In this document: positions 31,474 through 35,101 of the stretch, piece after piece
How positions within the stretch are numbered: the stretch's first letter is position 1
Layout: every line of letters starts with the position of its first letter
NCBI RefSeq assembly: GCF_000428985.1
Contig: NZ_AUAZ01000003.1
Span: forward strand, 177,324 to 241,323
Length of the DNA: 64,000 nucleotides
Direction: 5' to 3'
DNA from: Marinobacterium litorale DSM 23545
Lineage (GTDB): Bacteria; Pseudomonadota; Gammaproteobacteria; Pseudomonadales; Balneatricaceae
Program-made: the position numbers and the translations under genes
The notes under the pieces: model-generated
Databases searched by the model: none
Told to the model about the DNA's origin: nothing
Seen by the model: the letters and a program-made list of their open reading frames with translations, nothing else

Positions 31474-31501
31474 GGAACTTCGACGGAGCGGCAAACTCAT
31501 A
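31474..31501 (+). promoter_or_regulatory. Sigma-E (AlgU) promoter of its own operon
   Basis: GGAACTT (31474-31480), a 16-bp spacer, then TCATA (31497-31501), close to the RpoE consensus GAACTT-N16-TCTGA. It lies about 125 bp upstream of the sigma factor gene, so autoregulation is likely. Confidence 0.7.
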
Positions 31502-31626: not shown

Positions 31627-32214
31627 GTGGCGAACGAGAGTCAGGCCGCGGCGGACCAAAAACTGGTAGAACGGGTGCAGGCGGGCGATAAACGCGCATT
31701 CGATCTGCTGGTGAAACAGTATCAGCACAAGATTATTGGGCTGATTGGCCGCTATGTTTATGATCACAGCGAAGCGCTGGATGTCGCTCAGGAAGCGTTT
31801 ATCAAAGCGTATCGGGCACTGCCCAACTTTCGTGGTGAGAGCGCGTTCTACACGTGGTTGTACCGCATCGCGATCAATACAGCCAAGAATCATCTGGTGG
31901 CGCGGGGACGTCGCCCGCCGGATACCGATGTGGATGTGGCCGATGCGCACTATTTTGAAGGCGATAGCGAGCTCAAAGAGATCGAAACGCCGGAAAACAG
32001 TCTGTATCGCGATGAGCTGGAGCGCGTCGTGCGTGATGCGCTCAACCAGCTGCCGGAGGACCTGCGTGTGGCGCTGACCCTGCGCGAGTTTGAAGGGATG
32101 AGCTACGAGGATATCGCCAGCATCATGGATTGCCCCATCGGCACCGTGCGCTCGCGAATCTTCCGGGCGCGTGAGGCGATCGACCGAGAGATTCAGCCGT
32201 TGATGGAAAACTGA
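31627..32214 (+). CDS. rpoE: RNA polymerase sigma factor RpoE/AlgU
   Basis: 195-aa ECF sigma factor for envelope stress. Region 2 (DLLVKQYQHKIIGLIGRYV, then DHSEALDVAQEAFIKAYRAL) and region 4 (about 135-185: LREFEGMSYEDIASIMDCP, then IGTVRSRIFRAREAI) are complete. Start codon is GTG at 31627 with AAAGGA upstream; length equals that of AlgU-type proteins. A sigma-E type promoter lies upstream, and the anti-sigma gene follows after 112 bp. Confidence 0.97.
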   Translation: MANESQAAADQKLVERVQAGDKRAFDLLVKQYQHKIIGLIGRYVYDHSEALDVAQEAFIKAYRALPNFRGESAFYTWLYRIAINTAKNHLVARGRRPPDTDVDVADAHYFEGDSELKEIETPENSLYRDELERVVRDALNQLPEDLRVALTLREFEGMSYEDIASIMDCPIGTVRSRIFRAREAIDREIQPLMEN

Positions 32215-32326: not shown

Positions 32327-33196
32327 ATGAGTGAGTGTAAGGAAAGCCTGTCGGCTCTGATGGATGGCGAGACCAGTGATTTTGAGACTCGGCGTCTTCT
32401 GCAACAGGTGGATGACGATCCGGCTCTGGGTCAAACCTGGCGCCGCTACCACCTGGCGCGCTCGGTGATGCAGGGCGAGGCCCTGGCCCGTCATGACATG
32501 GACCTGAGTGAACGGCTCAGTCTGGCGCTGGCAGAGGAGCCGGCCCATGGTCTCGAGCAGCCGGCAGCAGCGACCCGGTCAGCACCCTCTGTGGTCGAGC
32601 GCCTTTCGGGCGTGCGCCGTACCCTTGCCAGCATGGCAGTGGCGGCTTCGGTCACCGCGATTGTGATCTTCGGGGCCAACAATTTTGCGCCGGTGGGCGA
32701 GCCTGCCTCGTCGGAGCTGGCGCAGTCGTCGCAAAACCCACAAATTCAATATCCGTCCATGCCTGCTACTGCTTCGGCAGATCTGGTGCGTACCGGCTTT
32801 GGTGACCGCGTGGCGCCGGCCGGCAATCGCAGTGAGGCGGGTAGCGCCGAGGTTATTCGCCTGTCTCAGGGGCTTAACGATTACATTGATCAGCACCGGC
32901 AGCTGGTTAGCGTCAATCAGCCGCGCTGGCGCAGTACCTGGCTGCCGGAGGGCTATAAGCCGGTACGTCATGAGTTGCTGCCGCACGGTGAGGTGATGAT
33001 GTTCTCCGATGGTCAGGCTACTTTCTCGGTTACTGTCGAGGAGTTGGGTTACCAGCGCTCCCCGGCCGGTGTGGCTCGCTCTGGCGGACTTCTTGCAGTT
33101 GGTCGTCAACAGGGCGATCGATTTGTCACAGTGGTGGGTGATGTGCCGCTGATGATTGCCGATCGGATAGCGAGCAACGTCGAACAGGTCAGGTAG
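32327..33196 (+). CDS. rseA: Anti-sigma factor: RseA/MucA fused to RseB/MucB C-terminal domain
   Basis: 289 aa, much longer than RseA or MucA (about 195-215). Residues 1-75 are the cytoplasmic RseA N-terminal domain (SLSALMDGETSDFE, TWRRYHLARSVMQGE) that binds the sigma factor. One membrane helix follows (about 100-118). The periplasmic part holds a short RseA-like segment (LNDYIDQHRQL, 183-193) and then, from about 200 to 289, a region resembling the C-terminal domain of MucB/RseB (STWLPEGYKPV, MMFSDGQATFSVTVEE, FVTVVGDVPLMIADRIA). The N-terminal lipid-sensing domain of MucB is absent, and no separate rseB occurs between this gene and rseC. Fusion by loss of the intervening domain is inferred; the frame is continuous with no sign of pseudogenisation. 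Confidence 0.82.
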   Translation: MSECKESLSALMDGETSDFETRRLLQQVDDDPALGQTWRRYHLARSVMQGEALARHDMDLSERLSLALAEEPAHGLEQPAAATRSAPSVVERLSGVRRTLASMAVAASVTAIVIFGANNFAPVGEPASSELAQSSQNPQIQYPSMPATASADLVRTGFGDRVAPAGNRSEAGSAEVIRLSQGLNDYIDQHRQLVSVNQPRWRSTWLPEGYKPVRHELLPHGEVMMFSDGQATFSVTVEELGYQRSPAGVARSGGLLAVGRQQGDRFVTVVGDVPLMIADRIASNVEQVR

Positions 33197-33200
33197 TGCG

Positions 33201-33635
33201 ATGATCGAAGAAGTGGTGCAGGTTTCCCGTGTTGAGGGTGGTGATATCTGGGTAGAGGCGAGTCGGCAGAGTGCCTGTGGCTCCTGCAGTTCAAAAAAGA
33301 GCTGTGGTCAGGGTGCGCTGTCTGACTGGATGTCTGGCAGTAGTGTGGAATTGACGGTGCTCAATCCCACCGGACTGCTGCCCAAGGTCGGGGAACGTGT
33401 TGTGGTGGGTCTGGAGGAGGGAAGCCTGATCCGGGCCTCTCTGCTGGTCTACCTGTTACCACTGTTTACTTTGGTGTTGTTTGCTGTGATCGCCCGAGGT
33501 TTGGGCAGCAGTGAAAGCATTCAGATTCTGGCGGGTCTGACAGGTTTGGCGGCGGGTTTTGTGGGCGCAAAAACGCTGGGTTCGCGTGCCTCCGATACCG
33601 GCTGTTATCAGCCAATTCTCCTCCGTTTAGCCTGA
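33201..33635 (+). CDS. rseC: SoxR-reducing/positive sigma-E regulator RseC
   Basis: 144-aa inner-membrane protein. The N-terminal cysteine cluster ACGSCSSKKSCGQG (about 25-38) fits the C-x2-C-x5-C pattern of RseC/RsxC-associated proteins. Two membrane helices follow (about 77-95 and 101-117: SLLVYLLPLFTLVLFAVIA). In E. coli it modulates RseA and helps keep SoxR reduced. It starts five bases after the fused anti-sigma gene, so the operon order is rpoE-rseA-rseC-mucD. Confidence 0.87.
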   Translation: MIEEVVQVSRVEGGDIWVEASRQSACGSCSSKKSCGQGALSDWMSGSSVELTVLNPTGLLPKVGERVVVGLEEGSLIRASLLVYLLPLFTLVLFAVIARGLGSSESIQILAGLTGLAAGFVGAKTLGSRASDTGCYQPILLRLA

Positions 33636-33679: not shown

Positions 33680-35101
33680 ATGGTCATGATTAATCGATGT
33701 AAAGCGTTGTTCTTGTTCTGGCTGCTGGCGCTGGTTGCGCCGCTGTCGATGGCGGCTGAGCTACCGGATTTCACGGATCTTGTTAAAGAGTCTTCGCCGG
33801 CTGTGGTCAACATCAGTACCGTGCAGTCGATGGACCCGGAAGGCTCTGGCCCGTTGGGGCAGTTTAACGGCCCTGACTCGGAGCAGATTCCGGAGATATT
33901 CCGTCATTTTTTCCGCAATATGCCGGAGTTTGACTCGCGCCCTCGTCGGGCACCGGAGTCACTCGGTTCGGGTTTCATCATTTCCGAGGATGGCTACATT
34001 CTGACCAATAACCATGTGGTGGATGGTGCCGATCAGGTGATGGTGCGACTCAATGATCGCCGTGAACTGGAAGCGAAAATCATCGGTACCGATGCCCGCT
34101 CCGATGTGGCGCTGCTCAAGATCGAGGCAGACGATCTGCCGGTGGTGCGGATTGGTAAAGCCCGGGAACTGGAAGTCGGTGAATGGGTGCTGGCAATCGG
34201 CTCGCCGTTTGGCTTCGATCATACCGTTACTGCGGGCATCGTCAGTGCCAAGGAGCGGGCGCTGGCCAACGAGACCTACGTTCCGTTCATCCAGACCGAT
34301 GTGGCGATCAACCCGGGTAATTCGGGGGGGCCGCTGTTCAATCTTGATGGCGAAGTGATCGGTATCAACTCCCAGATCTACACACGCTCCGGCGGCTTCA
34401 TGGGGCTCTCCTTTGCGATTCCCATCGATGTGGCCATGGATGTGGCGGATCAGCTCAAGTCTCAGGGCTATGTGTCCCGCGGCTGGCTGGGCGTCGTGAT
34501 TCAGGAAGTGAACCGTGACCTGGCGGAGTCCTTTGGTCTGGAAAAACCGGCCGGTGCGCTGGTGGCCAAAGTGTTGCCGGATAGCCCGGCACAGGCGGCC
34601 GGCTTGCTGGAAGGGGATGTGATTACCCGCTTCAATGGCCGTGATATCGCGCTGTCTTCAGATCTTCCGCACATGGTTGGCCGTGTGAAGCCTGGCACTG
34701 AGGTGAAAGTCGAAGTGATTCGCGATGGTGAACGGACCTCCCTGGATGTGGTGGTTGGTTTGCTGCCGGAAGAGGAGCAGCAGGCAAGTAGCGGGTCGGA
34801 AGGCCCTCAGGCCGCTCAGTCCAACCGGCTTGGACTTAAGATCGAACCCCTGACCGAAGCCCTGCGTGATCAGTGGAATGTGCGCTCCGGTGTACTGGTT
34901 GCAGACGTGGTCGATGGCCCCGGTGCCCGTGCCGGTGTGGTTTCCGGTGATGTGATCACCATGCTTAACGGCAAGCAGATCGAGACCGTGGATCAGTTTG
35001 CCCGGGTGGTCGAAGAGCTGCCGGAGGATCGCTCGGTTCCCATGCGTATCGTTCGGCGCGGCAGTCCGCTGTTTATTCCGTTGAAACTCGGTAGCGAGTA
35101 A
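33680..35101 (+). CDS. mucD: Periplasmic serine protease MucD (DegP/HtrA family)
   Basis: 473-aa trypsin-like protease with a Sec signal peptide (LFLFWLLALVAPLSMAA, cleavage about residue 26). The triad is complete: His112 (TNNHVVDG), Asp142 (ARSDVALLK) and Ser215 (NPGNSGGPL). Two PDZ domains follow (about 265-355 and 380-465). It degrades or refolds misfolded periplasmic proteins and feeds back on sigma-E signalling. The ATG at 33680 is chosen over an upstream in-frame TTG at 33665; an ATG at 33686 is also possible. A good terminator follows, closing the sigma-E operon. Confidence 0.94.
   Translation: MVMINRCKALFLFWLLALVAPLSMAAELPDFTDLVKESSPAVVNISTVQSMDPEGSGPLGQFNGPDSEQIPEIFRHFFRNMPEFDSRPRRAPESLGSGFIISEDGYILTNNHVVDGADQVMVRLNDRRELEAKIIGTDARSDVALLKIEADDLPVVRIGKARELEVGEWVLAIGSPFGFDHTVTAGIVSAKERALANETYVPFIQTDVAINPGNSGGPLFNLDGEVIGINSQIYTRSGGFMGLSFAIPIDVAMDVADQLKSQGYVSRGWLGVVIQEVNRDLAESFGLEKPAGALVAKVLPDSPAQAAGLLEGDVITRFNGRDIALSSDLPHMVGRVKPGTEVKVEVIRDGERTSLDVVVGLLPEEEQQASSGSEGPQAAQSNRLGLKIEPLTEALRDQWNVRSGVLVADVVDGPGARAGVVSGDVITMLNGKQIETVDQFARVVEELPEDRSVPMRIVRRGSPLFIPLKLGSE

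Follow-up and report, generated by a model that had tools for sequence, protein, structure and literature searches.

The release of a sigma factor by RseA and RseB is the textbook case of two coinciding signals, namely unfolded outer-membrane proteins and displaced LPS. In the MucA-MucB pair, the contact between helix alpha-I of MucA and the C-domain of MucB is the main interface, helix alpha-II of MucA binds the MucB N-domain, and D247 of MucB is an inter-domain residue; in RseB-RseA, the protease site of RseA sits buried in a hydrophobic pocket of RseB (PMC7400510). The reference for AlgW cleavage is the VLAG stretch at residues 134-137 of MucA (PMC8545111), and in the size-exclusion model of RseP, RseB serves as bulk (PMC8098476). 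A natural family with half of RseB, covalently attached, is a test of which half does what and of whether the lipid signal is dispensable. Here we describe such a protein from Marinobacterium litorale DSM 23545, encoded in a 64,000-nucleotide stretch of contig NZ_AUAZ01000003.1 (positions 177,324 to 241,323, forward strand), which we call the window.

A merged gene between rpoE and rseC

The locus reads nadB (reverse strand), rpoE, fusion gene, rseC, mucD and lepA, with nadB and lepA named from their translations (Table 1). A preliminary description of this DNA had proposed that the gene between rpoE and rseC joins an RseA-type anti-sigma factor to the MucB/RseB C-terminal domain in one frame. 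The position is confirmed by TIGR02939 upstream and PF04246 downstream, and the 289-aa ORF carries both Pfam domains over cut-off, RseA_N with 76.7 bits (cut-off 24) and, on the C-terminus, MucB_RseB_C with 61.7 bits (cut-off 30.1). In sequence searches, the N-part matched the cytoplasmic MucA chains 6in7 and 8z6g and chain C of RseA 1or7, and the C-part matched MucB and RseB chains. As a whole, the protein stays below the NCBIfam equivalog cut-offs for both RseA (NF008116; 72.9 vs 263 bits) and RseB (NF006990; 43.5 vs 368 bits). Its place among the RseA/MucA anti-sigma factors is given by RseA_N beside an rpoE-type sigma gene 112 bases upstream, and by a single predicted membrane helix, read from the sequence, with a periplasmic tail carrying alpha-I; of the features that define RseB/MucB it has the C-terminal domain, and neither the N-domain nor a gene of its own. 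The transmembrane helix is among the most conserved stretches of the family alignment, and R178, L179, Y186 and H190 are invariant across 22 alignment rows. Overall, the fusion architecture is firm.

Table 1. Features of the fusion gene and its neighbours, in window coordinates.
Feature	Position	Strand	Evidence
rpoE/algU-type sigma factor, presumed target of the fusion protein	31627..32214	+	TIGR02939 RpoE_Sigma70 3.6e-95, 317 bits, over cut-off
RseA-RseB(CTD) fusion gene, 289 aa	32327..33196	+	Continuous ORF; fusion present in each of the 16 genera in the window's family
RseA_N, cytoplasmic sigma-binding domain, residues 5-88	32339..32590	+	PF03872 2.1e-21; matches MucA/RseA chains
Transmembrane helix, about residues 101-118, SMAVAASVTAIVIFG, presumed RseP substrate	32627..32680	+	Read from sequence
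Flexible periplasmic segment, residues 119-175, presumed AlgW cleavage site	32681..32851	+	pLDDT mostly <50; site inferred from MucA VLAG 134-137 (PMC8545111)
VIRL motif and helix alpha-I, residues 176-194	32852..32908	+	Corresponds to the helix through which MucA/RseA binds the C-domain of MucB/RseB (PMC7400510)
Joint, residues 195-200, without the MucA alpha-II tail	32909..32926	+	Spacing from alpha-I His to first C-domain Trp; motif count
RseB/MucB C-terminal domain, residues 198-286	32918..33184	+	PF17188 7.4e-17; VIA Z ~16; dN/dS median 0.05
rseC/mucC, starting 4 bases past the fusion stop	33201..33635	+	PF04246 7.9e-34
MucD/DegP-type periplasmic protease	33680..35101	+	TIGR02037 6.3e-153; two PDZ regions

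The genome is rated 100% complete, and whole-genome profile searches returned a single PF17188 match, the fusion gene itself, and a single PF03872 match. The RseB N-domain (PF03888) is absent from the 289-aa protein in the Pfam search and has no match over cut-off in the whole genome. The absence of a separate rseB and of the lipid-sensing N-domain, both claimed from the letters of the DNA, thus stands, and the PF17188 and PF03888 searches rule out a second rseB elsewhere in this genome. Weak PF03888 matches occurred in 14 relatives; five of these loci were read, and the four that were scanned encode LolA_like or DUF1571-type proteins. More generally, LolA_like and DUF1571 proteins score close to or over the cut-off of the Pfam model for the RseB N-domain (L149, L150, L151, L152), and such cross-matches are a trap for automated rseB calls.

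Looking for DegS and RseP homologues, a check suggested beforehand, recovered both kinds of protease. One is an AlgW orthologue of 381 aa that carries a hydrophobic stretch at the N-terminus and a single PDZ domain; among proteins of solved structure, its best match is AlgW (460 bits, residues 3-377). The other is RseP, over its equivalog cut-off. A DegS/AlgW-type protein was present in all 20 fused genomes checked, none of them passing the DegS equivalog cut-off and a few aligning over the protease and PDZ part only. In addition to MucD and the AlgW orthologue, the genome encodes two more proteases of the DegP/DegQ type (L082:1228-2583 and L083:1228-2577). A promoter-like pattern of the sigma-E/AlgU type (GAACTT, 16 bases, TC) lies at window positions 31475-31498, about 130 bases upstream of rpoE, and occurs in the window at chance frequency.

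Distribution and number of origins

Within the window's family, PF17188 was found in 112 of 116 genomes, which cover all 16 genera; the named members of the family are Marinobacterium (Oceanospirillaceae in the NCBI placement), Neptunomonas and Motiliproteus. Every family member that was read has the fusion in one frame (114 ORFs, 87 of them distinct), so it is no accident of assembly or frameshift, an explanation that the 87 distinct one-frame fusions rule out. Gene order around the fusion is conserved, and the neighbourhood is unchanged apart from the merger. The fusion is the standard form of the whole family: as the survey of relatives proposed in the preliminary description makes clear, the architecture is shared by all genera and not peculiar to this genome. 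Against its own reading, that description had set the joint case of a full rseB elsewhere and a C-terminus that is a normal extension in the clade; the extension is indeed normal in the clade, while the genome holds no full rseB.

Outside the window's family, nearly all matches listed for 391 genomes of the order and 369 of the class span the RseA part or the C-domain only, and a separate full-length rseB adjoins rseA at most loci read. When 71 genomes that had given one match or no match were checked specifically, nothing in them spanned the full fusion model. Long open frames in G694, G807, G673, G465, G481, G764 and G571, considered as further fusions, turned out to be separate genes.

RseA_N and MucB_RseB_C do, however, stand in one frame in five of six genomes of a family of another order (f148), directly between rpoE and rseC at the two loci read. 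Most members of the window's family have 10-11 residues from the alpha-I His to the first Trp of the C-domain; the f148 joint has 34-36 and may hold a remnant of the MucA tail. In the tree, the f148 fusions fall among class members whose genes are separate, on the far side of a branch with 99% SH-aLRT. Given that a tree test did not reject a single clade of all fusions (p-AU 0.18), independence rests on where f148 lies in the tree, on its joint and on the separate genes found in between: the f148 fusion is probably a second origin, with transfer as a possible alternative. The f148 fusion loci (L186:1902-2942, L187:1980-2906 and L194-L196) come from genomes of 1.6-2.9 Mb.

Monophyly of the fusion within the window's family was likewise not rejected (p-AU 0.40). 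The alpha-I Y...H motif is lost in the sub-lineages L125, L127, L128, L129, L138, L067 and L102 of this family, and most sub-lineages without alpha-I keep an IRL motif before the C-domain. Because a quick tree places one sub-lineage, g13, beside a separate-gene row, the alpha-I-less sub-lineages possibly represent a separate fusion.

Both domain families and the pathway were already known. We found no description of the fusion architecture, its family-wide fixation or its recurrence in the open-licence literature, which leaves out most subscription papers, and within that literature all three are apparently undescribed; the architecture may possibly already stand in the Pfam or InterPro architecture lists.

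Retained and lost parts of RseB, and their possible roles

In an AlphaFold2 model built from the 87-row family alignment, the C-domain reaches a pLDDT of 92-97 per block and the middle of the protein is disordered; the transmembrane region is predicted as a helix at residues 101-114 with low pLDDT, and alpha-I as a helix at 180-194. Comparison of the model with solved structures also bears out the assignment of the C-terminus. Residues 198-289 of the model align (VIA-align) to RseB 2v43 and 3m4w and to MucB 6jau and 6in9 with a Z of about 16 over 88-91 residues, the next-best fold reaching a Z of 8.6.

Retention of the parts that bind one another in the two-protein systems is uneven. By simple patterns, which give lower bounds, the alpha-I Y...H motif is kept in 75 of 87 fused proteins of the window's family and 4 of 5 of f148, and the alpha-II P[YF]xR motif occurs in 24 of 45 separate RseA proteins vs none of the 87 and none of the 5 fused ones. 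The equivalent of MucB D247 is D in all 45 separate RseB proteins vs 21 of 87 and 1 of 5 fused proteins, and N in most fused proteins of both lineages; the window's protein retains it as D228. Two positions further on, residue 230 is L, V or I in 45/45 separate RseB proteins, whereas an aliphatic or aromatic residue stands there in just 9/87 and 0/5 of the fused ones, the others being mostly polar or charged; this position would have faced the N-domain. Changes at these two positions are expected, since the N-domain no longer covers that face. E222 is found in 78 of 87 fused proteins of the window's family. F266 (window 33122-33124) is present in 85 of the 87, variable in separate RseB and R in f148, and may mark a family-specific contact.

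The reading that we favour, and consider somewhat probable, is that of a working anti-sigma factor that keeps the RseB C-domain in cis as bulk against RseP, perhaps also as a clamp, and that has lost lipid gating. The gene would likely have arisen when one in-frame deletion took out the end of rseA together with the first two thirds of the rseB next to it. By homology, the cytoplasmic domain would hold the neighbouring RpoE/AlgU; AlgW, activated by the tails of misfolded outer-membrane proteins, would cut the flexible periplasmic segment, and RseP, encoded like AlgW in this genome, would then cut in the membrane. The tethered C-domain would keep the RseA-contacting part of RseB in cis; its bulk would block RseP until AlgW has cut, and it may also hold the alpha-I helix. 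With the N-domain gone, which in MucB/RseB binds lipid A and helps to bury the protease site of RseA, a lipid signal would no longer gate cutting, and sigma release would depend on the outer-membrane-protein signal alone. The change in how envelope stress is perceived, already suggested in the preliminary description, would follow from the loss of the N-domain, seen in the light of the MucB/RseB structures (PMC7400510).

Alternatively, the C-domain could act by itself as a sensor or docking domain, for another periplasmic ligand or partner that controls cutting, so that the second signal was exchanged rather than lost. The very strong constraint on the C-domain and the positions fixed only in the fused family, such as F266 and E222, would fit such a role; however, no partner gene is seen in the conserved neighbourhood, and we know of no ligand for the RseB C-domain alone. 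We consider an exchange of signals unlikely. Still harder to uphold, and in our view distinctly improbable, is a C-domain that serves mainly as an intramolecular clamp, with alpha-I docked as in MucA-MucB and the AlgW site shielded without the N-domain. While the frequent retention of the alpha-I motif and the rank of this contact as the main MucA-MucB interface (PMC7400510) speak for it, the confidence of alpha-I is modest (pLDDT about 65-79) in the AlphaFold models, including one of residues 168-289 aimed at docking on the C-domain, and the hydrophobic pocket of RseB that buries the RseA protease site (PMC7400510) may not be supplied by the C-domain alone. Lineages without alpha-I also persist: since g13 and L102 have lost the motif yet kept the C-domain, such a clamp cannot be essential. 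Finally, it is scarcely credible that the C-domain is merely what is left of a decayed rseB, without any function at the end of RseA, as the loss of the lipid-sensing half and the changed residues facing it might suggest. No other part of the protein is as constrained (median dN/dS of 0.048 in 12-14 close pairs, against 0.066 for the linker and 0.156 for the sigma-binding domain), which largely refutes this idea and marks the C-domain as functional. It is also kept in all 16 genera, is predicted to be well folded and belongs to a fusion that arose a second time or was transferred.

Comparison with the two-protein systems

Returning to the favoured reading of a working anti-sigma factor without lipid gating, the merger in two lineages suggests that the lipid part of the two-signal alarm was dropped. 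We put forward only tentatively, as something that may be so, that RseB lost its lipid sensor in each of two unrelated gammaproteobacterial lineages and had its C-domain hard-wired onto the anti-sigma factor, so that a switch with two signals came to respond to one. If true, protecting RseA, the essential role of RseB, would fall to the C-domain alone, and lipid gating would be a separable and dispensable module. That the same merger appeared repeatedly speaks for a modular design, which laboratory strains could put to the test.

With MucA-MucB of Pseudomonas aeruginosa (AlgU, AlgW, MucP), the locus shares the gene order, the sigma and anti-sigma domains, the AlgW orthologue, RseP/MucP, the alpha-I helix and the fold of the MucB C-domain. 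In P. aeruginosa, however, MucA and MucB are made separately, the N-domain of MucB binds lipid A and the alpha-II tail of MucA binds that N-domain, whereas the fusion is a single protein with neither N-domain nor alpha-II. The RseA-RseB system of Escherichia coli (RpoE, DegS, RseP) agrees with the locus in operon logic and in both Pfam families, but there two genes are present and RseB has its N-domain, through which LPS gates the cutting of RseA, while the fusion is one gene from which that domain is missing.
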